Under the pieces are notes generated by a model. The model had not been told where the DNA came from. It saw only the letters and a list, made by a program, of their open reading frames with translations, and did not search any database. A program made the translations under genes and the position numbers. A DNA stretch of 64,000 bases, taken from NCBI RefSeq assembly GCF_000420705.1, contig NZ_ATVL01000007.1:124001-188000 (forward strand), written 5' to 3'. This DNA is from Hymenobacter norwichensis DSM 15439. GTDB lineage: Bacteria > Bacteroidota > Bacteroidia > Cytophagales > Hymenobacteraceae. Of this stretch, positions 11,064 to 28,160 are shown piece by piece (positions within the stretch are counted from its first letter, which is position 1; every line of letters begins with the position of its first letter).

Positions 11064-13397
11064 ATGAAACTCTTCAAATCTGCCGACCTCATCCGTAAAA
11101 GCAAGTACATCAGCCGCGACTTAAGCTGGCTGCGCTTCAATTACCGCGTCCTCGACCAGGCCAAAGACCCCGGCCGGACGCTGTTTGACCGGATGCGGTT
11201 CCTGAGTATCACTTCGTCGAACCTCGACGAGTTTTTCATGATTCGAGTGGGGTCGTTGTACAACTACCTCGACTACGGCAAGGAGCGGGTAGATTACTCG
11301 GGGCTGCGGGAGATGCCATTTCGGCGCAAGCTACTCGATTTCGCGCACCGCTTTGTGAATGACCAGTCGATGACCTACCTCAATGAGCTGAAGCCGCTGT
11401 TCGAGAAGAATGGCTTCAATATATTGAAGGTGAGTGATTTGACGGAAGTAGAGCTGAAGAAGGTAGATGGCTATTTCAAGAATACCATCTTCCCACTGCT
11501 TACGCCCATGGTTTACGACTCGTACCATGGTTTCCCGCTGATGGTCAACCAGATGCTGGTGCTAGGTGTGGTAACGCGCACCGGCACCGGCGACTTGGAA
11601 ACGGAGAAAGGGCAGGAGCGCATCACGTTCGTGCAGATTCCGCAGAACCTGTCGCGCTTCTTTGAACTGAGCCGCAAAGACAAGGTGATGTTCGTGCCCA
11701 TCGAGGACATTGTGCGCGAAAACCTGCCGAAACTGTTCCGCAACGTCAGCATCGAGTCGGCCAACCTGTTCCGCATCACTCGCAACGGCGACTTCACGCT
11801 GGAAGAATCAGAGGACATCGATACCGATTTTATCAAGGAGCTTCAGCAAGGGCTGAAAACGCGCAAGCGGGGCCGGGTTGTACGGCTGGAAGTGGAGCCT
11901 GATGCCTCGCCGCTGCTGATGGCGGTGCTGAAAGAACGGTGGAAGATTGATAACGGCAATGTGTTTGTCATCAGCTCGCTGGTGGACCTGAAAGGACTGT
12001 TACAAATCCTGAAACACCCGAATTTCCGGGGTAGGGGGTCTAAGTTGCCTTCGCCGGTAGCGCCGTTGAGCTTACCTGAAGGCGCCGACGAAAACCTGTT
12101 TGAGTACCTCAAGCACCACGACGTGCTGCTGCACCACCCCTATAACAGCATTGAGCCGATGGTGCGGTTACTGGAACAGGCTGCCGAAGACCCGCAGGTG
12201 CTGGGTATCAAGCAAACTATCTACCGTCTAGCCGAAGACTCGCGCGTATCAGCGGCGCTACTGAAGGCGGCGGAAAACGGTAAGCACGTATCGGTACTGT
12301 TTGAAATCAAGGCCCGATTCGATGAGGAGCGCAATATTAGGGAGGGCGCGCGGCTGGAAAAAGCGGGGTGCTTTGTCATCTACGGGGTGAGCAAGTACAA
12401 GACGCACACCAAAATGCTCATGATTATCCGTAAGGAGGGAGAGAAGGTGACGCGCTACGTGCACATCGGCTCAGGCAACTACAACGAGCAAACTAGCAAG
12501 CTCTACACCGACGTGAGCATGCTCACCACCAACGACGTGTACGGCCACGACGTGTCAGAATTCTTCAACGTCATCACCGGCCACTCGCAGCCTGACGACT
12601 ACGAGTACCTGATTACGGCGCCCAAAGACATGCGTCAGCAACTCATCCACCTGATTCGGGAGGAAGTGCGCAACGCTAAAAAGGGCTTGCCGAGCGGCAT
12701 CGTCATGAAAATGAACTCCCTGGAAGACAAGGAGATGATTGATGAGGTTTATCGGGCTTCCAAGGCGGGCGTACCCATCCGCTTTATTGTGCGCGGCATT
12801 TGCTGCCTGCGGCCGGGCCGGCCTGGCTTGAGTGAAAACATAGAAGTGCGCAGCATTGTGGGCGACCTGCTGGAGCACTCCCGGCTGTTCTACTTCCACC
12901 AAACCGGCCAGCCCAAAGTGTACGCCGGCTCCGCCGACGTGATGGTGCGCTCCTTTGACCGGCGTATTGAGGCGCTGTTTCTGATTGTGAATCCGCAGCT
13001 GAAGCGTGAGGCCATCAGCATTTTGATGCTCAACTTGCTGGACAATCAGAACGCCTACATTATGCGGGAGGATGGTGCCTACATCCGCCGGCAACCCACG
13101 CCCGACGAACCCATTGTGAACGTACACAGAGACTTCTACCGCCGCGACGAAGAGCGTCTGGCCGCTGCCACGCCCGAAAAGCTACTAACGCTATTAAGCA
13201 AGCAAACCTCTCGAAGCGAAGTGTCCGATGTGCCCGTTGTAGATGACGACCAAGGCAGAACGGATATTGGCAGTGAAGTTCCTGGCAGTGAGCTGGATGC
13301 TACCACTAATGAAGCCGCAGAAGGAGAAGAGCAGTTTGCTTACCCAGTTGCCGTTATCGAGAAATATGAGGGCGAAGCCAGCCTGCCTAACGTGTAA
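11064..13397 (+). CDS. ppk1: Polyphosphate kinase 1
   Basis: A 777-residue PPK1. The family makes polyphosphate from ATP reversibly through a phospho-histidine. Visible signatures are the N-domain start YISRDLSWLRFNYRVLDQA, FDEERNIREGARLEKAG, YKTHTKMLMI and YVHIGSGNYNEQTSKLYTDV, which carries the catalytic His. The last 80 or so residues are an acidic, variable tail (DVPVVDDDQGRTDIGSEVPG) beyond the conserved C2 domain. It converges on an exopolyphosphatase-family gene, so synthesis and turnover genes are neighbours but transcribed separately. Confidence 0.95.
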   Translation: MKLFKSADLIRKSKYISRDLSWLRFNYRVLDQAKDPGRTLFDRMRFLSITSSNLDEFFMIRVGSLYNYLDYGKERVDYSGLREMPFRRKLLDFAHRFVNDQSMTYLNELKPLFEKNGFNILKVSDLTEVELKKVDGYFKNTIFPLLTPMVYDSYHGFPLMVNQMLVLGVVTRTGTGDLETEKGQERITFVQIPQNLSRFFELSRKDKVMFVPIEDIVRENLPKLFRNVSIESANLFRITRNGDFTLEESEDIDTDFIKELQQGLKTRKRGRVVRLEVEPDASPLLMAVLKERWKIDNGNVFVISSLVDLKGLLQILKHPNFRGRGSKLPSPVAPLSLPEGADENLFEYLKHHDVLLHHPYNSIEPMVRLLEQAAEDPQVLGIKQTIYRLAEDSRVSAALLKAAENGKHVSVLFEIKARFDEERNIREGARLEKAGCFVIYGVSKYKTHTKMLMIIRKEGEKVTRYVHIGSGNYNEQTSKLYTDVSMLTTNDVYGHDVSEFFNVITGHSQPDDYEYLITAPKDMRQQLIHLIREEVRNAKKGLPSGIVMKMNSLEDKEMIDEVYRASKAGVPIRFIVRGICCLRPGRPGLSENIEVRSIVGDLLEHSRLFYFHQTGQPKVYAGSADVMVRSFDRRIEALFLIVNPQLKREAISILMLNLLDNQNAYIMREDGAYIRRQPTPDEPIVNVHRDFYRRDEERLAAATPEKLLTLLSKQTSRSEVSDVPVVDDDQGRTDIGSEVPGSELDATTNEAAEGEEQFAYPVAVIEKYEGEASLPNV

Positions 13398-13494: not shown

Positions 13495-14493
13495 CTATTC
13501 TATTTCTGTTGGGCGGCTTTGCGGGGTCGGAAAAGGCACCGTGAGCGAGTGGTCTTCGCGGGCTCGGATTTCGTCGAAATGCTCTTCGAACAACGTTTGG
13601 AGCATGCCGTCTTTCAACCCAATATCGGGCACAATCATCTGGTGCACGTTGGCCCATTCCATAGCCGACAGGTAGATGTGGCCAGCCGGCACAATGACGT
13701 CGGCGCGGTCAGGGTTGAGCATAGCCACGTTCACCCGCTCATCCATGCTCATGCTGGTCAGATTGTGCAGTACGGTGGCAATGCGGCGGCGCGTCACTGA
13801 TTTATCGAGTTGCTGCGGCTGCGCAATGCTGTAGAGCTTGTTGATGTTGCCACCCGTACCGATAGCGCGCGTTACGTGGTAGCGGCGGGCGTTTTCCTTC
13901 ACCCATTCCTCCATACGCTGCCACAGGTCGTTCTGAGCTTCGGTGGAAGCTAGGCCACTCTCTTCCTGTTGCATCCGCCGAATCGAGCCGATTTCAAACG
14001 ACTGTGAAGCTACTTTGCGCCGGTCGTGGTAGATATTGAACTCGGTACTGCCACCGCCTACGTCAATGTGCAGGTAGTGCTTTTTGTCTTCCAGCAAATG
14101 CTCGATGACGCGGTTGATGTAGGCGGCCTCGTCCTGGCCGTCAATCACCAGCACTTTCATACCCAACTCCCGCTCGATGCGGGCTGCCACTTCGGCGCCG
14201 TTGGCCGCGGTGCGCATTGCCGACGTAGCGCAGATTAAGTAGTGGTTAGGCGCCACATCGTGCACCTCCATCAGCAGCTTAAGAGCATGCAGAAACTTGA
14301 TGAACTTCTCCTGCTTTTTGTCGGAGATGGTGCCGGTGGCAAATACGTCTTCGCCCAGCCGGAGGGGGTAGCGCACATATTCCACCCGTTTGAGGCGGTA
14401 CCGGTCGCCGTAGTGGAGCACTGCTGAAATCTGGCAACGAACGGCATTGGAGCCTATATCAATAGCGGCCAGTTTCAGTAGCGGATACTCCAT
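13495..14493 (-). CDS. Ppx/GppA family exopolyphosphatase
   Basis: A 332-residue member of the actin-fold Ppx/GppA phosphatase family. These enzymes release phosphate from polyphosphate or convert pppGpp to ppGpp. Motifs are AAIDIGSNAVRCQI (P-loop 1), HIDVGGGSTEFNIY and AIGTGGNINKL. Only the N-terminal two-lobe core is present, without the C-terminal HD extension of enterobacterial Ppx. The frame extends to 14526, but a -7 box at 14524-14531 would put the transcript start near 14517, so the ATG at 14493 (MEYPLLKLAAIDIG) is preferred. The neighbouring ppk1 favours the polyphosphate role. Confidence 0.9.
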   Translation of the reverse strand: MEYPLLKLAAIDIGSNAVRCQISAVLHYGDRYRLKRVEYVRYPLRLGEDVFATGTISDKKQEKFIKFLHALKLLMEVHDVAPNHYLICATSAMRTAANGAEVAARIERELGMKVLVIDGQDEAAYINRVIEHLLEDKKHYLHIDVGGGSTEFNIYHDRRKVASQSFEIGSIRRMQQEESGLASTEAQNDLWQRMEEWVKENARRYHVTRAIGTGGNINKLYSIAQPQQLDKSVTRRRIATVLHNLTSMSMDERVNVAMLNPDRADVIVPAGHIYLSAMEWANVHQMIVPDIGLKDGMLQTLFEEHFDEIRAREDHSLTVPFPTPQSRPTEIE

Positions 14494-14523
14494 CAGGAAA
14501 GCAGGTAAAGTTGAAATTTCGGC

Positions 14524-14531
14524 CAAATATA
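14524..14531 (-). promoter_or_regulatory. -7 promoter element of the ppx gene
   Basis: On the minus strand this reads TATATTTG, an exact TAnnTTTG match, 30 bases before the chosen start. It decides between the two possible starts of ppx. Confidence 0.55.
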
Positions 14532-14643: not shown

Positions 14644-17600
14644 CTAGTTATCGATCCGGAAGCCCACGCCAAACCGAATCAGGCCGTTTTCCGGCGACTG
14701 TTGATAAGAAAAGGACAGGGCATATTGGTCGGAAACAGGGGCCAAGTAGAAGCCTGCACCGTAGCCCTCGTGCCAGCCGCCCGGCGACGAGCCTTTGTAG
14801 TACACCCGGCCCCGGTCGTAGAACCCAAATACACCGTAAGAGAAGGGCAGAAACGCCTTTTGCACGCGGCCCAGTGCCAGGCGCAGCTCTGTATTGAGGT
14901 AGAGGCTGGCGTCACCGGTGAAGCGGTTGCGGTAGTAGCCACGCAGGCTTTCGTTGAGGCCCAGGCTGGTGAATTTGTAGAACGGTATTTCGTCGTCGGC
15001 ACCGTAGTTTTTGCCGCCGCCGCCTTTCACCACTAGCGTAACCGGAATGCCCAGGCGGGCCGTGCCATAGTACTCAGCAAACCCCTGCGTGAGTCCAAAC
15101 AGCTCCTGGCCCTGATTGAGCTGATAGTACGTGTTGTGGCGAGCCACCAAGCGCACTCCCCGCCGCGCAAAATTCTGCCGGTCGCGCAAATCAAGATCGA
15201 ACAATCCGTTCAGGCCTAATAGCTGCTGCTTGCTGGTGTTAGGGCGCCGGTCGTCGTTGCCAGGCAATTGGCCACCCAGCAACTCACCCAGGTAGCTGTT
15301 GCCCGCAAAATCCGACGTGTATTGCTCGAACGACGGCCCCACGCGCAGTACGCTACGCCGCAGGAAAACCCGCTCGGTAAACACGTTGATGGTGTAGCCC
15401 TTGTAACGGGCACGGTAATAGTTGTTGTCGAACCGGGCTTCGTCTTTTTGGGTATCGTTGCCGAGGCCGAAAAAGTTGTAGAACGGGAAATAAGCGCCGT
15501 AATCTACGGCCGCGCCTACGTCCCAGCGCCCGAAGGCATAGCGGTAGCGCGAGGCCAGCCCCACCTGAAAGTTGCCGCCCGTAGAGCCACGTAGGTTGAA
15601 CGTGTAGAGGTTACGGTAACCCGGTTTGCGGAAGCCCTGGCGGTTGAAGTTGATGCCCACACCTGCTCCAAAGCCGTCGTTGCGGTTGTAGATTAATGTG
15701 GCGCTTGGGGTGTAGCCGTTGTACTGGAACGATTCCCGGTCGTAGCGGTTCACATCGGGGCGCAAAGACGTGCGGTTGTCACTTTCGGGGCCGAGTTGGA
15801 GCTGAGTATCGGGTACGTCGTAGATTTTGGTGAGAGCCCGCAAGCCACCAGCGCGGGAATTATCGGTGATTTGGTCTTTGCCTTCGCCCCCAATAACGCG
15901 TACCAGTACGCTCTTGCCGGCCGTGCCCGTCACGTTGAACACGTCTTTGCCATCGAGCCCGTACAAACAGATTTCCTCGGTTTCGTCGCGCTTGAATGTG
16001 CGCTCAAATAGCGGCTCTCCTTTGGCGGTGCCTTCCTCTTTGTCTTTCTTGAACATCTGCACCCGCACGTTGCCGTCGGCCAAGCGGGTCACTTCAAATA
16101 CCTCGTTCTTATTGGAGCCCACCACGTCTACCCGCTTGGCCAGCATCAGGTAATACTCATCAAGTACTTTGGGCAGTTCCTGAATACGAGCCTTAAGCTT
16201 GCGGTTCAGGTCGTTGCCCGACAGCGGCATTAGTTCCGGTGGAAGCTGAGCGGTGGCTTCGTCAATGGCGGCCGGCGTGATGCGCGCCTGTACGTAGCGC
16301 CCGATTTCCTGCCACTGTTCCCGCGTCAGGCTTTGCAGCAGGAACCGGTCCAGGTCTTTGGCAGGCCAGTTCAGGCTTTTGAGGTCGTGGAATTCCGTTT
16401 GAAAGTCCTCGATACTGCCCACCGCCCATTCACGGTTGGCCAGATAAGTCAGCAGGCCGTTCCAAAGGGTGAAGGCCTGGTCCCGGTCGCGCGGAATGGG
16501 TTTATAGATGGTTTTCTTGCCCTGCTTGTAACCGGCCCATTTCCAGTTGTCTTCGTGCTTGCCAAAGTCGGCGACCAGCATATCGAAGGCGCGGGCCCGC
16601 CCAAAAGCCTCTGCGTCGATGCGGTTGTCGTTATCCTTGTAGAGCTGGCGAAAGAAACTGAACGAGCGGCGCACCTCATCGGCTCCCCCGAAACCGGGTA
16701 AGTTGGGCTTGGGGTCTTTGGGGCTGTCTTCGAGCGTACCCAGCATGCCAGCATAATCGGCGCGGTAGGCCCCCAGTTGGTTGTTGTCGGGTAGGGCAAA
16801 CAGGCGTGGCCGGGCGTGCAGAATATCGGTTTTATCGAGCATCGAGCTGATAACCAACGCTGAATACGGATGCGCCGTGGGTGTAATACCGCGCAGCACG
16901 TCGGCGGCCACCGAGTTTTGCAGTTCCGGCGGCAGAATCTTGGTTACGTCCTTGTCAACCGAACGAAACACGTATTCCGACGAATCGGCGGCAATAACCT
17001 TGAGCGAGGTGGTCTGGCGTCCGCCGCCGCGTCCAAACGGCCGGAGCCCGCCATTCTCGGTGGCGAGATTAAGCGTGCGCACCCGCACCGGCTGGGTCCA
17101 GGAGGTGCGGTACACTGGCCCTAAAAAAAACCGCGAAGAAGCTGAACCGCCATACTGCGGCCCGGCCGCTACCGTTTGGGTCGGCTGAAAAGGCGCATCG
17201 GGCTTGAACTCGGCCACGCCTTTCGGGGCCGAAGGACATTCGGGAATAAAGCTGTTGACGGGTACGCCCGCCAGCCGTGGCTGCTGGCACGCCGACTGAA
17301 ACAGTGTACCTGCATACGACTCCTGCGCCGTAGTACCCGCAGCATCGAACGTGTAAAAATGGGCCTTTACAGTGCCATCGGCAAAATATTCGAGCTTGGA
17401 AAAGCCTTCTTCCGACTTGTTGTATAAAGCATCCCCGCCGGCTCCTACGTGCTGTTTCTCAGCAAAGGAGCCCGATACGAGGTGGTAGTTGTCGTCGCGG
17501 CGGTTGAGTTGCAGGCTGTAGTCGTGGGCGGCGGCGTACACGGCACCGGGATGGTCGCGCAGGGTGTTGAGTAGCTCTTTGCTGAACTCCTGGTATGCCG

Positions 17601-18375
17601 GATTAGCTAGGTCGCGCGGGGTGCCCACGTTCTGGCGGTAGGCAGCGTATATCGTGCCGAATACGGGCGGCAGTAGGTGGCGGCTTAGGGGCTGCTTGCC
17701 ACCATACACGCCGTTGCTGATAACCGGCTGATGCCCGAGCAGCAGCACGTTCTTGTCTTTAGTGTCGTCGAGCAGGTCTTGCAACTGCTCCCGGAACTCC
17801 TGCTGCGTCAGGGTTTTGCAGTCGGTATCGGGCGCTTCGGGGCGGTGAAAGGGGTGGGTAAACCACGGCGAGTTGAGGGCGACCAAGCGCACGTTGGGTG
17901 CCACATCCACCACTTCGGGGCCAGGGCAGCCGCCGGTGGGCACAAACGCATTCTGGCCCGGCAGGCGCTTCTCGATGTAGTCTTCCAGCCGCCGCACACG
18001 CTTGAGCCCGTCGCGGCCGGAATTGGCCCAGTCCCGGTCGCCGGGCACAAAGTAGATTTTGCCGTTAGGGAGCCCTTGCACCAGCGCCAGCAAAGCATCC
18101 ACGCGGGCTGTTTCGTTGCCGCGGGTGGAGTCGTTTTTGGTGCCCATGCCTTGCGGACCCACAATATCACCTAGGTGCACTACTGTAAACGTACCGGGCT
18201 GGGCTTCTAGGCTCTTGCGCAGCGCTTGCAGGTGTGCGGTGGGCAGGTCGGCGGTGGCCGTGTTGCCGAGTAGGTAAACGGTGTGCGTGGCGGGGGAAGG
18301 AGTTTGCGCCAGCAGGGGAGAAGCAGTGGTCAGGCCAAGCGCGGCCAGCAACAAGCAGCGGAAAGGTGAGGGCAT
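14644..18375 (-). CDS. Metallophosphoesterase fused to outer-membrane barrel, with kinase-like middle region
   Basis: A 1,243-residue exported protein with a Sec signal peptide ending near LLAQ (residues 1-24). Residues 30-350 look like a calcineurin-type phosphoesterase: VVHLGDIVG, VPGDRDW (in place of the usual GNHD) and LGHQP (His215). The first metal motif is degenerate, LLGN where LIGD is typical. Residues about 400-700 contain MLVADFGKHEDNW (His607, Asp609, Asn610) and IPRDRDQAF (Asp630, Asp632), resembling the catalytic and metal motifs of CotH/HipA-like kinases. The last 350 or so residues are aromatic-rich alternating strands ending in GVGFRIDN, typical of an Omp85/D15-type barrel. 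It is probably anchored in the outer membrane. Similar giant phosphoesterases occur across Bacteroidota. I chose the ATG at 18375 because it starts the signal peptide. The kinase-like call is inference. Confidence 0.8.
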   Translation of the reverse strand: MPSPFRCLLLAALGLTTASPLLAQTPSPATHTVYLLGNTATADLPTAHLQALRKSLEAQPGTFTVVHLGDIVGPQGMGTKNDSTRGNETARVDALLALVQGLPNGKIYFVPGDRDWANSGRDGLKRVRRLEDYIEKRLPGQNAFVPTGGCPGPEVVDVAPNVRLVALNSPWFTHPFHRPEAPDTDCKTLTQQEFREQLQDLLDDTKDKNVLLLGHQPVISNGVYGGKQPLSRHLLPPVFGTIYAAYRQNVGTPRDLANPAYQEFSKELLNTLRDHPGAVYAAAHDYSLQLNRRDDNYHLVSGSFAEKQHVGAGGDALYNKSEEGFSKLEYFADGTVKAHFYTFDAAGTTAQESYAGTLFQSACQQPRLAGVPVNSFIPECPSAPKGVAEFKPDAPFQPTQTVAAGPQYGGSASSRFFLGPVYRTSWTQPVRVRTLNLATENGGLRPFGRGGGRQTTSLKVIAADSSEYVFRSVDKDVTKILPPELQNSVAADVLRGITPTAHPYSALVISSMLDKTDILHARPRLFALPDNNQLGAYRADYAGMLGTLEDSPKDPKPNLPGFGGADEVRRSFSFFRQLYKDNDNRIDAEAFGRARAFDMLVADFGKHEDNWKWAGYKQGKKTIYKPIPRDRDQAFTLWNGLLTYLANREWAVGSIEDFQTEFHDLKSLNWPAKDLDRFLLQSLTREQWQEIGRYVQARITPAAIDEATAQLPPELMPLSGNDLNRKLKARIQELPKVLDEYYLMLAKRVDVVGSNKNEVFEVTRLADGNVRVQMFKKDKEEGTAKGEPLFERTFKRDETEEICLYGLDGKDVFNVTGTAGKSVLVRVIGGEGKDQITDNSRAGGLRALTKIYDVPDTQLQLGPESDNRTSLRPDVNRYDRESFQYNGYTPSATLIYNRNDGFGAGVGINFNRQGFRKPGYRNLYTFNLRGSTGGNFQVGLASRYRYAFGRWDVGAAVDYGAYFPFYNFFGLGNDTQKDEARFDNNYYRARYKGYTINVFTERVFLRRSVLRVGPSFEQYTSDFAGNSYLGELLGGQLPGNDDRRPNTSKQQLLGLNGLFDLDLRDRQNFARRGVRLVARHNTYYQLNQGQELFGLTQGFAEYYGTARLGIPVTLVVKGGGGKNYGADDEIPFYKFTSLGLNESLRGYYRNRFTGDASLYLNTELRLALGRVQKAFLPFSYGVFGFYDRGRVYYKGSSPGGWHEGYGAGFYLAPVSDQYALSFSYQQSPENGLIRFGVGFRIDN

Positions 18376-18472
18376 AAAGAACGAGTTATTGGCCGGCGAG
18401 ACCGGAATTGAGAGCAAGATTAATTTAAAATTAATCCTGTCATTTCCCCTAACCGGCTTTCTTCAATAAAGG

Positions 18473-19840: not shown

Positions 19841-20740
19841 TCAATTGAACCGCCGCAGCTGCTCTCGGCCAAACGTCCATTCAGGCGTATCGAACCGCGC
19901 TTCGGCCGGATTTACGGCGAACCATACCCCGCCCGCTGCCGCCGGGTCGCGCAGCACATGAATCTGCTGGGCGGGCATGTAGCTTTGGGCCAGTAGCACG
20001 TACCGCTGGCCGGTGGCAGGCAGTTCGGCTACATCCAGCACCAGCACGGCGTGGCCCGGCGAGCCGCCCCGAATGAATACGTCGCCGGGCTGCACGCCGG
20101 TTAGCGGCGTTGGGGCCAGCTCCCGCTCCAGCGAAAGGGTGCCGGCATACGTGAAAATCTGGTCGAGGTAGCGGCGGAAAACGTCGTGTGTGGGTTGTTC
20201 TATGGCTTTGGGTGCTGCCACTACCGCGTTGCCGCTCGCCCGGAAGCCCTGGCCCCCATACCAGTCCACAAACCGGATATCGTCGCCGCTGGTCAAATGG
20301 AAATGCACTTGGTCGAGGTTTCGAGAAAACTCGTACTCACCACGCAGCCGGATTACGGCATCGGCGCACTGCTGCAAATCCCGGCTGCCCACGTCGATGT
20401 TCACAACCGCCGCGTGTACGGTTTGCGGGGTTTTTAGCTGGCCGTTGTGTAGGTGCACTGCCGTACCGGCGGGCAGCAACGGCAGGTAGCGCAGCCATTG
20501 TCCGAAGGAGCCCTGCGCCACCGCCACCCGCCGACAGCCCGGTGGTGGCGCAAACCGTGCGGCCAGACTTTGTTTCGCGTTGTAAGCACCAACTGGCAGC
20601 CACGGATAGCGGTTGGTGATAGCAGCGGCACTCGCAACATTCTGTTGACCAATCATTGGCGCTTTTTGTGAGTTCGTTGACAACGCAACTTGACTGAACG
20701 CCATTAGAAGACTGCCTATAACAAGGAAATGGCGAAGCAT
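19841..20740 (-). CDS. DUF4846 domain protein, exported
   Basis: 299 residues from the ATG at 20740 (MLRHFLVIGSLLMAFSQVAL), which gives a signal peptide. The frame extends upstream to 20863, but that part crosses the topA terminator. The mature part resembles DUF4846: RYPWLPVGAYNAKQSLAARF, RLRGEYEF, FHLTSGDDIRFVDWYGGQGF and PGDVFIRGGSPGHAVLVLDV. The last motif (GDVFIRGG...GHAVLVLD) resembles a Cys/His hydrolase-like fold, but no catalytic Cys is evident. The function of the family is unknown to me. It lies downstream of topA but is separated by a strong hairpin. Confidence 0.8.
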   Translation of the reverse strand: MLRHFLVIGSLLMAFSQVALSTNSQKAPMIGQQNVASAAAITNRYPWLPVGAYNAKQSLAARFAPPPGCRRVAVAQGSFGQWLRYLPLLPAGTAVHLHNGQLKTPQTVHAAVVNIDVGSRDLQQCADAVIRLRGEYEFSRNLDQVHFHLTSGDDIRFVDWYGGQGFRASGNAVVAAPKAIEQPTHDVFRRYLDQIFTYAGTLSLERELAPTPLTGVQPGDVFIRGGSPGHAVLVLDVAELPATGQRYVLLAQSYMPAQQIHVLRDPAAAGGVWFAVNPAEARFDTPEWTFGREQLRRFN

Positions 20741-20841
20741 AGGGATAGTAGCTATAAAAATTCCTAACGTTTCAAAAGCCGCATCAGGTATAGCTGCCGC
20801 CGGCCGTTTTGTATCTTTTTCGGCTTCAATATGCCTATAAA

Positions 20842-20881
20842 ACCAAGCGGCCCACCGAATCAATTCGGTGGGCCGCTTGGT
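20842..20881 (-). terminator. Terminator after topA
   Basis: A 19-bp perfect inverted repeat (20842-20860 with 20863-20881) has almost no loop and is very GC-rich in the middle. On the minus strand it is followed by a short TTTT, 24 bases after the topA stop. Confidence 0.85.
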
Positions 20882-23409: not shown

Positions 23410-23759
23410 TGGAGGGTAGTAGTGGCAGCAGTAGACAGCTAACTAAGAGAAAATGTACTTAGAAAACGAGACGGAGAGTGGGAAGTTGAATTTTGCCGCA
23501 AAGATGATGGAATAATCTCGTGTCCCACTGTGCGGCGCACAATAACTCTGCCACGCCTCCTTTGGTGATACGGCTTGATGGCAACAACGGATTAGTGAGA
23601 AGAGGTTCACGTAAATCTTTTCTTCCTGTTTTACCTATGCCATAATCCTGTGCGGCGAAACAACCGTATTCGTTACCTTTGCCAAGTAGGGATACGGCCC
23701 TTTTTGGCCGGTTCCCGTTTGCTTTGCCCACTTTCCACGGGCCTCGCTACTCCTTCTTT
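23410..23759. promoter_or_regulatory. Divergent promoter region, topA and chemoreceptor
   Basis: 350 bases with no convincing gene. TACCTTTG at 23674-23681 (plus strand) is a good -7 box for the chemoreceptor gene and places the transcript start near 23688. The in-frame TTG at 23679 therefore cannot be the start codon, and the ATG at 23760 is chosen. The minus-strand near-match CATCTTTG at 23499-23506 could serve topA. Confidence 0.5.
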
Positions 23760-26700
23760 ATGGCATCAGGTAAGACTACCACCCCCTCCATCCGTCGCGC
23801 CAAGCCCGCTGCTTCTGCCGCCTCCGCCGCTGAGCCTGAACAGATTACCGCCACCGCTGCCCTGCCTGAGGAGAATATCCGCAAGAGCGCAGCTAGCCGG
23901 AATAACCGCCGCGACCAAGCCGTGCAAAATCCGGAATATGTGAATGAGCAACTTAACCGCGTGCTTTTTGCGCTGGATGCTTTCAAAAAAGGCGACGTAT
24001 CGGTGCGGCTCACCAAGCAAACCGACGACATCTTCGCTGAAATTGCCGAAGCCTATAACTCGATGGTGGAGATGATAGGCGGGGTAGGGGGCGAGGTGTC
24101 ACGCATTTCGAAGGTGGCCGGGGTGGAAGGCAACCTGAAAGCCCGCGCCTCGGCCGACAACGCCGCCGGATTCTGGCGCGACATGATCAACAACATAAAT
24201 GGCCTCGTAGATAGCATTGCCGTGCCGGTGTTGGAAGTGGGCAAAGTGCTCAAGAACATCAGCAAAGGTAACCTCGACGAAACCTTCCAGATTCCGGTTT
24301 CCGGCGACTTCAAGGTGATGGCCGAAACCATCAACAAGACCATCGACAACCTCAACCTGTTTGCCGGCGAAGTAACCCGCGTGGCGCAGGAAGTGGGTAC
24401 CGAAGGCAAATTGGGCGGCCAGGCATCTGTGCCGAACGTCGGCGGGGTGTGGAAAGACCTGACCGACAACGTAAATACCATGGCCTCGAACCTGACGAGC
24501 CAGGTGCGCGACATTGCCAACGTGGCTACCGCCGTGGCTAAGGGCGACCTGAGCCAGAAAATGACCGTGGACGTGAAGGGCGAAGTGCTGGAGCTGAAGA
24601 ACATCTTGAACCAGATGGTGGACTCGCTCAATATCTTCGGCGACGAGGTAACCCGCGTGGCCCTGGAGGTAGGTACCGAGGGCAAACTCGGCGGCCAGGC
24701 GGCGGTGCCTAACGTGCGCGGTACCTGGAAAGACCTGACCGACAACGTAAACTATATGGCTTCGAACCTGACGAGTCAGGTGCGCGACATTGCCAACGTA
24801 GCCAACGCCGTAGCCAAAGGCGACCTGACCCAGAAAATGACCGTGGACGTGCGCGGCGAGTTGCTGGACTTGAAGCAGAATCTGAACCAGATGGTGGACT
24901 CGCTGAACCTGTTTGCCGGCGAAGTAACCCGCGTGGCCCTGGAAGTAGGGACCGAAGGCAAGCTGGGTGGTCAGGCGTCCGTGCCGAATGTGGCTGGCGT
25001 CTGGAAAGACCTGACCGACAACGTGAACTTCATGGCCTCCAGCCTCACATTGCAGGTGCGCGACATTGCCAACGTAGCTACGGCCGTAGCCAAAGGTGAC
25101 TTGAGCCAGAAAGTGACGGTGGAGTTGAAAGGCGAGCTGCTGGATTTGAAGCAGAACCTAAACCAGATGGTGGACTCGCTGAACCTGTTCGCTGGCGAAG
25201 TAACCCGCGTGGCCCTGGAAGTAGGCACCGAAGGCAAGCTCGGTGGCCAGGCGCTGGTACCGAACGTGGCTGGCGTCTGGAAAGACCTCACAGACAATGT
25301 GAACTTCATGGCTTCGAACCTGACCTCTCAGGTGCGGGATATTGCCAACGTGGCTACGGCCGTAGCCCGCGGCGACCTAAGCCAGAAGATGACGGTGGAC
25401 GTGAAGGGCGAGATTCTGGAGCTCAAAAACATCCTGAACCAGATGGTGGACTCGCTCAACATCTTCGGCGACGAAGTAACCCGAGTAGCCCGCGAAGTAG
25501 GCACCGAAGGCAAGCTCGGCGGACAGGCCGCCGTGCCGCGTGTGTCGGGCACTTGGAAGGACCTGACGGACAACGTAAACTTCATGGCCTCGAACCTGAC
25601 TTCTCAGGTGCGGGATATTGCCAACGTAGCTAGCGCGGTAGCCAAAGGCGACCTGACCCAGAAGATGACAGTGGATGTGAAGGGCGAGATATTCGACCTG
25701 AAGAACATCCTCAATCAGATGGTGGATTCGCTCAACATCTTTGCCGGCGAGGTAACCCGCGTGGCTCGCGAAGTAGGCACCGAAGGTATCCTAGGTGGTC
25801 AGGCCTCGGTACCCAACGTAAGCGGCACTTGGAAAGACCTGACGGACAACGTGAATACGATGGCCTCGAACCTGACTTCTCAGGTGCGGGATATTGCCAA
25901 CGTAGCCACGGCCGTAGCTAAAGGTGACCTGAGCCAGAAAGTAACCGTGAACGTGCGCGGAGAGCTATTGCAGCTCAAAGAGAACCTGAACCAGATGGTG
26001 GACTCGCTGAATACGTTCGGCGACGAAGTAACCCGCGTAGCCCGCGAAGTAGGCACCGAAGGCAAGCTCGGTGGCCAAGCCGATGTGCCGAACGTGCGCG
26101 GCACCTGGAAAGACCTGACCGATAACGTTAACACGATGGCCGCCTCGCTCACCAGCCAAGTACGCGACATTGCCAACGTAACCACCGCCGTAGCCCGCGG
26201 CGACCTAAGCCAGAAGGTGTCGGTGGACGTGAAAGGCGAACTGCTCGACCTCAAGGACAACATCAACCGGATGGTGGACTCGCTCAACATTTTTGCTGGC
26301 GAGGTAACCCGCGTGGCGCAGGAAGTGGGCACGGAAGGTAAGCTCGGCGGCCAAGCTGATGTACCGAACGTAACCGGCGTGTGGAAAGACCTGACCGACA
26401 ACGTAAACACGCTGGCCGCCAACCTCACCACCCAGGTACGTGGCATTGGTAAGGTAGTAACCGGCGTATCGCAGGGTGACCTGACCCAGAAGCTGACTTT
26501 AGACGCCAAAGGCGAAGTAGCGGACTTGGCCGACACCATCAACCGCATGGTGGACGACCTGAACCGTTTGGCGCAGGAAGTAAGCCGCGTGGCCAAAGTG
26601 GCCGGGGTGGAAGGCAAACTGACCGAACGGGCCAGCGTAGGCGGCGTGAGCGGTTCGTGGAAGGAAATCGTGGATACCCTCAACGACCTGCTTGAATCCA

Positions 26701-28160
26701 TTGCCTCGCCAGTGCTGGAAGTAAGCCGCGTGGTGCGGGCCATATCGGAAGGCGACCTGACGCAGCAAGTGGAAATCCAGACGGCCGGCGACATTCAGGC
26801 CATGGCCGATGCGCTGAACCTGGCCGTTGACAACCTGAACGACTTGCTGGCTGAAATCAACGAGTCGTCGCAGGTGGTAGGCACCTCGTCGGAGGAAATG
26901 GCAGCGAAAGGGCAGGAGATGAGCCGGGTAACCGTTGACGTGGCCTTGGCCATGCAGCAAATGGCTGAAGGTGCGCAGAACCAAGCTCTCAAAACTGACC
27001 AAGCCTTCAAGCTGATTGAAGAAATCATGCAGGCCACCAAGGAAACGGCCGGCAAAGCCGATGTAGGCATCAAGGCGGCTATTCTCGGGGAGCAAACCTC
27101 ACAGCTCGGCTTGAAAACAGTAGCCGAGGTGGTGAAGAATATGGAGGAAATTTCGGCGGCGGCAGCCCAAACGGCCCGCACCATCGAGGTTCTATCCAAC
27201 CGTTCCCAGGATATCAGCAAGACCCTGGCCGTCATTACCGACATCGCCTCTCAAACCAACCTGCTGGCCCTGAACGCCGCTATTGAAGCTGCTCGGGCCG
27301 GCGAAGCGGGCCGCGGTTTTGCGGTGGTAGCCGAGGAAATCCGGAAACTGGCCGAAGGCTCCCGCCGCTCGGCTTCGGAAATCGGTACGCTGGTAGACGA
27401 CGTGAAAAAGGACACGACCAGCGCTGCCACGGCTATTTCTACCATGGAAGGCCGGGTATTGAAAGGCAAAAATGCCACCTTCGAAGCCAGCTCGGCCTTC
27501 AAAAACATTGCCACTAGCTCCGGTGAAACCCTACGTACCTCGCGCGACATCCTCACGGCCACCGAGATTCAGAAAACCTCGATTGGCGACGTAGTAAAGT
27601 ACGTGGAAGAAGTGGTAGCTATTGCCGAGCAAACTGCCACCGGCACGCAGCAAGTAGCCGGTACCGCCAAGCAGCTCTCGGGTTCGATGCAAGAGCTGAC
27701 CGTATCCAGCCAGCGCCTCACCGACATTGCCGACGACCTACAACTGGGCTTGTCCAACTTCCAGTTGCTAGAGGAAATTGAACCCGAGCCGGAACCCGAG
27801 CCAGTACGTCCGCGTCGCTCGGCACGAAGGGCGGCGGCAACGCAACCGCCCGTGTCAACCACACCGGAGCGCGACCGGGCCAGTACCCGCCGCCAGAATG
27901 CCGCCATTGATGCCGCGCATGCCCAGGCCGTAGCCAGCCGGCCGTTGGTGGCCACGCGCCGCGGCGACGCCCGGCCCACGGCTGAGGCTCCGGCGCCCGT
28001 GCGCAAGCCTACCAACGCCGAGCAGAACGAAGCCCAGCGTAGCCGCAAAGCCAGCCGCCGCGCTGCCAGCGAGGCTAAAGCCGCCAATAATCCTGAAACA
28101 GAAGCCACGGCTTCAGGTGAGAAGCCTGCTAAAGCCCGCTCGAAAGCGAAAGCCAGGTAA
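23760..28160 (+). CDS. Soluble poly-HAMP methyl-accepting chemotaxis protein
   Basis: A 1,466-residue chemoreceptor with no membrane segment or recognisable ligand domain. After a disordered start, residues about 70-1030 are a chain of HAMP-type units, each about 92 residues. Eight are near-identical, with cores like [19 protein letters not shown], [18 protein letters not shown] and LNQMVDSLN. Units at both ends are more divergent. The C-terminal signalling hairpin follows (about 1035-1335), with the tip [20 protein letters not shown] and [16 protein letters not shown] that binds CheW and CheA. A basic Arg/Ala-rich tail ends the protein, and no CheR-tethering pentapeptide is seen. The repeat units resemble those of fungal group III (Nik1-type) histidine kinases. 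It leads the che gene cluster and is expected to be cytoplasmic. Confidence 0.93.
24096..26855 (+). repeat. In-frame 276-bp tandem repeat array, about 10 units
   Basis: Conserved GTAACCCG-type repeat starts fall at 24372, 24648, 24924, 25200, 25476, 25752, 26028 and 26304, exactly 276 bases apart, with degenerate units in the same phase at 24096 and 26580. Each unit encodes 92 residues of the HAMP array. Confidence 0.95.

Follow-up and report, generated by a model that had tools for sequence, protein, structure and literature searches.

What might a bacterium do with a single exported polypeptide that joins a phosphatase-like domain, a kinase-like domain and an outer-membrane barrel? The question is raised by a gene on the minus strand (14644..18375) of the window analysed here, a stretch of 64,000 nucleotides from Hymenobacter norwichensis DSM 15439 (contig NZ_ATVL01000007.1, positions 124,001 to 188,000). 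The open reading frame (14644..18417) opens at a TTG, and the natural ATG at 18375 gives a protein of 1243 residues, of which close full-length orthologues exist in Hymenobacter. A sequence-only reading had proposed that it fuses a phosphoesterase to a barrel, with a set of CotH/HipA-like kinase motifs between them. The fusion is borne out, since a calcineurin-like domain and a BamA/TamA-type barrel lie in one reading frame, and the window protein emerges as an outer-membrane-anchored fusion of phosphatase-like and kinase-fold domains. We have found no account of this architecture in the open-access literature, which does not prove that none exists.

Predicted fold of the middle domain

An AlphaFold2 (AF2) model of residues 385-890, built on a 67-sequence alignment, has a predicted local distance difference test (pLDDT) score of 91.4 and a predicted template-modelling (pTM) score of 0.91, and both Foldseek and VIA-align identify in it a two-lobed kinase fold, which we assign to residues 430-745 (16141..17088). 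Foldseek ranks CtkA, a kinase of Helicobacter pylori, first (E 2.8e-5, probability 1.00); the other matches listed are, with few exceptions, kinases or kinase-fold phosphotransferases. In VIA-align, for which Z scores of 7-8 are quoted as typical of unmatched models, PI4K-II beta (Z 14.9 over 258 residues) and the Bacillus cereus spore-coat kinase CotH (PF08757; 5jd9/5jda; Z 14.4 over 253-254 residues) are tied, with CtkA (Z 13.6), HipA (Z 11.7) and Fam20 (Z about 10.6) behind them. The kinase fold of the middle domain is therefore settled as far as prediction allows, and the region in which the earlier reading had expected it (residues 400-750) has CotH among its top, tied matches.

Sequence profiles, however, do not reveal this relationship. 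No Pfam or NCBIfam model, including those for CotH (PF08757), HipA (PF07804/HipA_C) and PI3_PI4_kinase, matches residues 430-745 in the window protein or in 66 relatives, so that the family is uncatalogued. Comparison by hhalign with a CotH alignment drawn from related genomes is not significant (P 0.23), nor is that with a HipA alignment of the same origin, and a profile of the kinase-fold region finds nothing among all PDB sequences. The profile match to CotH that might have been hoped for is thus absent; profiles do not place the domain within either CotH or HipA, and its relation to them is seen through fold and motif only.

Differences from the known kinases are correspondingly large. PI4KII alpha/beta provides the best fold match, yet the window domain has only 11% identity to it, lacks the PI3_PI4_kinase match, and is bacterial, exported and set in another architecture. 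The catalytic loop of PI4KII, DRGNDNW, resembles the DRHEDQW found in those relatives of the window protein that have the canonical catalytic Asp. HipA and CtkA are alike in fold alone, and we know of no kinase of either type in barrel-anchored form.

Catalytic positions

The two motifs on which the kinase proposal was founded, FGKHEDNW (from residue 604) and IPRDRDQAF (627-635, 16471..16497), lie in highly conserved blocks and are not a product of chance. Among 115 aligned relatives, Asp603, Asp630 and Trp613 are present in all, Trp611 in 114 and Asp632 in 113, while Arg471 and Glu549 are nearly invariant. A glycine-rich loop, GGGRQT (residues 450-455, 17011..17028), has its three glycines (450-452) conserved at 89-97%, and Lys475 in R-S-V-D-K (16951..16953), the candidate ATP-binding lysine, is retained in 111 of the 115. 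We infer that these glycines and Lys475 line the pocket.

The same genome holds a separate, true CotH (C6:556484), reading RALDNTGKNLYIAKYKAGEPYYYVPWDLDAVFG. A profile built from proteins of this kind aligns with the CotH of known structure from B. cereus, and their segments can be aligned by eye with the window-protein segment VADFGKHEDNWKWAGYKQGKKTIYKPIPRDRDQAFT. CotH retains the equivalents of D166, N171 and D184 of PKA, and two aromatic residues sandwich its adenine (PMC12189002). When the window protein is mapped by eye through CotH, these three slots are occupied by Gly605, Asn610 and Asp630, respectively. Asn610 is in register with the CotH Asn five residues past the catalytic Asp, and Asp630 with the metal-binding Asp (the second catalytic Asp of CotH) 23 past it, within an IP-x-D-x-D segment common to both proteins (IPWDYD in CotH, IPRDRD here). 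Moreover, Tyr624 matches the CotH aromatic six residues before this Asp, a position that is Tyr, Phe or Trp in 105 of the 115 relatives.

The CotH-like layout therefore stands for Asn610, Asp630 and Tyr624 but not for the Asp-x4-Asn motif that had been read into it. In the catalytic-loop segment ADFGKHEDNW (602-611, 16543..16572), the aspartates near Asn610 are Asp603 (seven upstream) and Asp609 (one upstream), and the residue five upstream is Gly605. Position 605 is Asp in 59 of the 115 relatives, Gly in 37, Ser in 17 and Asn in 2. Hence about half of the family has the canonical catalytic Asp (as in GDWDRHEDQW; D-type members hereafter), and the Asp-x4-Asn claim, if Asn or Gln is allowed at the last position, holds for these proteins and fails for the window protein. 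Taken with the lack of a CotH or HipA profile match, the glycine at this position leaves a working kinase unsupported in the window protein itself, which also differs from CotH in its lack of any Pfam match to the domain and in its fused phosphoesterase and barrel.

Phosphoesterase, linker and barrel domains

A probable Sec signal peptide (residues 1-23, 18307..18375), MPSPFRCLLLAALGLTTASPLLA, cut before Q and read from the sequence itself, precedes the phosphoesterase domain (residues 25-345, 17341..18303), which is of the calcineurin/purple-acid-phosphatase-like kind. In the window protein the PF00149 match lies below the cut-off (16.6 bits against 21.5, E 0.011), but the same model scores above it in a paralogue (E 6e-6) and in one stand-alone relative, and many stand-alone proteins of about 350-420 residues in a class-wide sample match the region. 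Aligned with these intact enzymes, whose motifs are of the GD.G, GDN.Y and GNHDW type, the window protein reads GNTA, GDIVG and GDRDW. The alterations suspected at LLGN (residues 35-38, metal motif I) and GDRD (residues 112-115, metal motif III) are accordingly real and distinguish the domain from its homologues of the GDxG/GDNxY/GNHD type, whereas the GD and two His positions are kept.

At the other end of the protein, residues 886-1243 (14647..15720) form an outer-membrane barrel of the 16-strand Omp85 (BamA/TamA) type in an AF2 model with a pLDDT of 90.5, with Z scores of 25.4 against BamA and 24.9 against TamA; the Pfam Omp85 profile matches 35 of 59 relatives. The segment linking it to the kinase fold (residues 746-885, 15721..16140) is all-beta and without POTRA-like helices according to DSSP in two AF2 models, the segment not having been searched alone. 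Relative to the Omp85 superfamily (BamA/TamA/PlpD), the protein shares the barrel but differs in carrying enzyme-like domains upstream, with no POTRA-like segment seen in these models. The N-terminal part of known BamA/TamA-type members faces the periplasm, and by analogy the soluble domains here probably do so too, which leaves the earlier description of a surface protein unproven.

Complete and altered members of the family

At least 588 relatives of the kinase-fold domain were detected, spanning Bacteroidota, Calditrichia, Ignavibacteria, Chlorobi, Rhodothermales and Longimicrobiaceae, and the domain is also found alone (about 550 residues) and fused to the barrel only (about 865 residues). 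About 20 orthologues from Hymenobacter or Hymenobacteraceae have 70-85% identity over the kinase-fold region, which is the best conserved part of the protein (mean pairwise identity of 78% among 20 Hymenobacter orthologues, compared to 71% for the phosphoesterase and 68% for the barrel); 169 of its 340 columns are invariant in this set.

Judged from their motifs, the window protein appears to be an altered member of a family in which others look catalytically complete, including a full-length paralogue in the same genome (L031, contig C6) with intact GDVG and GNHD motifs and Asp at position 605. In a tree computed without the loop columns, this position switches between Asp and other residues at least six times. 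All 31 members scored on the tree with an intact phosphoesterase GNHD have Asp605, while those with an altered phosphoesterase motif have Gly or Ser in 30 cases and Asp in 8. The D-type motif is present in 80 of 81 Hymenobacter genomes, the window type in 65 and a stand-alone Ser-containing type in 60; by hand count, 58 of the 62 matches to the last have a D-type match on the opposite strand at a distance of about 1.6-1.8 kb. Such a divergent stand-alone pair, which recurs across Hymenobacter, is present in the window genome (L032:3147-6552; C7, about 432-435.5 kb), with Asp in the catalytic slot of one protein (GDWDRHEGQW) and Ser in that of the other (GDWSRREDQW). The Asp and Ser types stand in tandem in three Pontibacter loci (L092, L107, L108).

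Several single loci deserve mention. In L080 (3-8550), tandem full-length members, one of the Asp type and one of the Ser type, have a PAP2 phosphatase between them. Two kinase-fold-plus-barrel proteins (L041:1275-3869 and L042:2049-4628) have lost the glycine loop, the Lys, the catalytic Asp and the second metal Asp and retain Asp603 and Asp630; by their residues, these are likely to be full pseudokinases. The copy from Hymenobacter sp. ISL-91 (L062:4792-8588) is in two overlapping frames, reflecting a frameshift or a sequencing error.

Gene neighbourhood

Immediately downstream on the same strand is a gene for an exopolyphosphatase of the Ppx/GppA family (13495..14526; PF02541, E 5e-37), followed on the plus strand by that for polyphosphate kinase 1 (PPK1; 11064..13397; TIGR03705, E 8e-219). 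A DUF4846 protein (19841-20863, minus strand, E 4e-81) belongs to the same-strand run topA-DUF4846-sir2-ydjM-KIN-ppx, in which KIN is the kinase-fold gene and ydjM lies directly upstream of it; the run is kept across Hymenobacter, and the order KIN-ppx-ppk1 in most Hymenobacter loci. In the class-wide sample, PPK1 occurs within about 7 kb of 12 of the 19 loci that are full-length or kinase-plus-barrel, compared to an expectation of 0.08, although one of these 12 (G103) assumes that two contigs are parts of one gene. Counting each family once, PPK1 is linked in 4 of 7 families (Poisson about 3e-8). Both PPK1 genes of the window genome adjoin a full-length member, that beside the C6 paralogue being accompanied by a SixA-like histidine phosphatase.

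The commonest neighbour of D-type genes (24 loci, including L031, L033, L034, L085, L086, L088 and L093) encodes an HD-domain protein with the transmembrane region of PycTM, a Pycsar effector. Next come an SdiA-regulated/phytase-like propeller (18 loci, in most of which it is the adjacent upstream gene in the same orientation), SixA-like proteins (7 loci) and PAP2 phosphatases (6 loci). Taken together, the gene linkage points to phosphate or polyphosphate handling. Elsewhere in the window (23679-28160) lies a gene for a 1493-residue protein in which roughly ten almost identical HAMP-like repeats precede a methyl-accepting-type signalling domain.

Functional interpretation

Taking the predicted fold, the domain order, the degree of conservation and the linked genes as they stand, we favour a reading to which we give about as much credence as doubt. 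D-type members would be working phosphotransferases, and the window protein, altered in its catalytic residues, would bind nucleotide or phosphate and serve as partner or regulator within a phosphate or polyphosphate system that faces the periplasm. The D-type proteins would transfer and remove phosphate, and their recurrent position beside PPK1 and other phosphate enzymes would tie them to phosphate or polyphosphate metabolism. The window protein has Gly605 and altered phosphoesterase metal sites, yet its glycine loop, Lys, Asn and DxD are intact. It may still bind nucleotide, metal or phosphate and act together with, or regulate, the presumably active paralogue encoded in the same genome, or it may instead retain some activity of its own through the invariant Asp603. 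A precedent is the activation of Fam20C by Fam20A, an altered/complete pair of secretory atypical kinases (PMC4421857). Both systems comprise extracytoplasmic atypical kinases as complete and altered paralogues; Fam20A, however, lacks the salt-bridge Glu whereas the window protein is altered elsewhere, the pairing seen here is genomic only, and the fold similarity is lower (Z about 10.6).

Several observations weigh against this interpretation. The periplasm is generally held to be without ATP, a difficulty for any ordinary kinase role; the link to PPK1 makes polyphosphate a candidate donor. D-type members also depart from textbook kinases because their Asn slot is usually Gln610. Moreover, PPK1 is no neighbour in 3 of the 7 families counted, and many neighbours (topA, sir2, ydjM) are not phosphate genes. 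Finally, we considered but dropped the idea that the phosphoesterase and kinase motifs were altered together repeatedly in evolution, since a tree-aware test reduces the association to essentially one shared deep event. That event makes the window clade a distinct altered subfamily; it does not imply that one loss forces the other.

The main rival, though we consider it unlikely, is that the window protein transfers phosphate itself, to a substrate of its own, with Asp603, or only the metal together with Asp630/Asp632, standing in for Asp605. Asp603 is kept throughout the alignment even when Gly, Ser or Asn occupies position 605, the glycine loop, Lys475, Asn610 and the DxD are all retained, the canonical Asn610, which is Gln in D-type members, is restored in the window clade, and no other region of the protein is as well conserved in Hymenobacter as the kinase fold. 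Nevertheless, CotH, HipA and PI4KII catalyse with an Asp five residues upstream of Asn, and the persistence of Asp603 in L041 and L042, which are devoid of glycine loop and Lys, suggests that it may be structural.

Those degenerate proteins, which also lack Asp605, together with the BamA/TamA kind of barrel, would suit a different view, which we consider unlikely, that the kinase fold is only a scaffold or ligand-binding module in a protein whose main role is that of a receptor or assembly factor anchored in the membrane, without phosphate chemistry. In most members, however, it is precisely the nucleotide- and metal-binding positions that are conserved, and the recurrent linkage with PPK1, SixA, PAP2 and phytase-like genes counts against this view as well. 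It is rather improbable, in our estimation, that the PPK1 link reflects only a shared ancestral gene order and that the protein is unrelated to polyphosphate. Within Hymenobacter the order is inherited and no more, and several families are without the link; yet distinct arrangements recur, namely KIN-ppx/ppk1 (window type), KIN-DUF6268/PPK1/SixA (D-type members of Pontibacter and Hymenobacter), PPK1-propeller-KIN (L011) and KIN-PPK1 in a Longimicrobiaceae genome (L100). It is very improbable that the gene is in decay, with the changes at its two catalytic sites marking a loss of function. The altered motifs in both enzyme domains and the frame-broken ISL-91 copy would fit, but 65 of the 81 Hymenobacter genomes retain the window-type motif and 169 kinase-fold columns are invariant, a conservation that already suggests a ratio of nonsynonymous to synonymous substitution (dN/dS) well under 1.

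The favoured reading can be carried further, into a proposal that we regard as a long shot. In Bacteroidota and their relatives, an outer-membrane-anchored kinase-phosphatase machine would draw on polyphosphate from the neighbouring PPK1, or on another non-ATP donor, and phosphorylate substrates in the envelope or at the surface. Altered paralogues, the window protein among them, would be its obligate activators.

Implications

The kinase-fold family, with at least 588 relatives, is missing from Pfam and NCBIfam, and we regard it as an uncatalogued variant of the atypical-kinase fold within the PI4K-II/CotH/CtkA/HipA branch. To our knowledge, bacterial kinases outside the cytoplasm have rarely been described, and what emerges here has the appearance of a bacterial system for phosphate handling that has gone unstudied. 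Its recurrent association with polyphosphate kinase offers a concrete, testable candidate for an extracytoplasmic phosphate source, and the pairs of complete and altered genes would allow the proposed antiquity of pseudokinase activation to be tested in bacteria.

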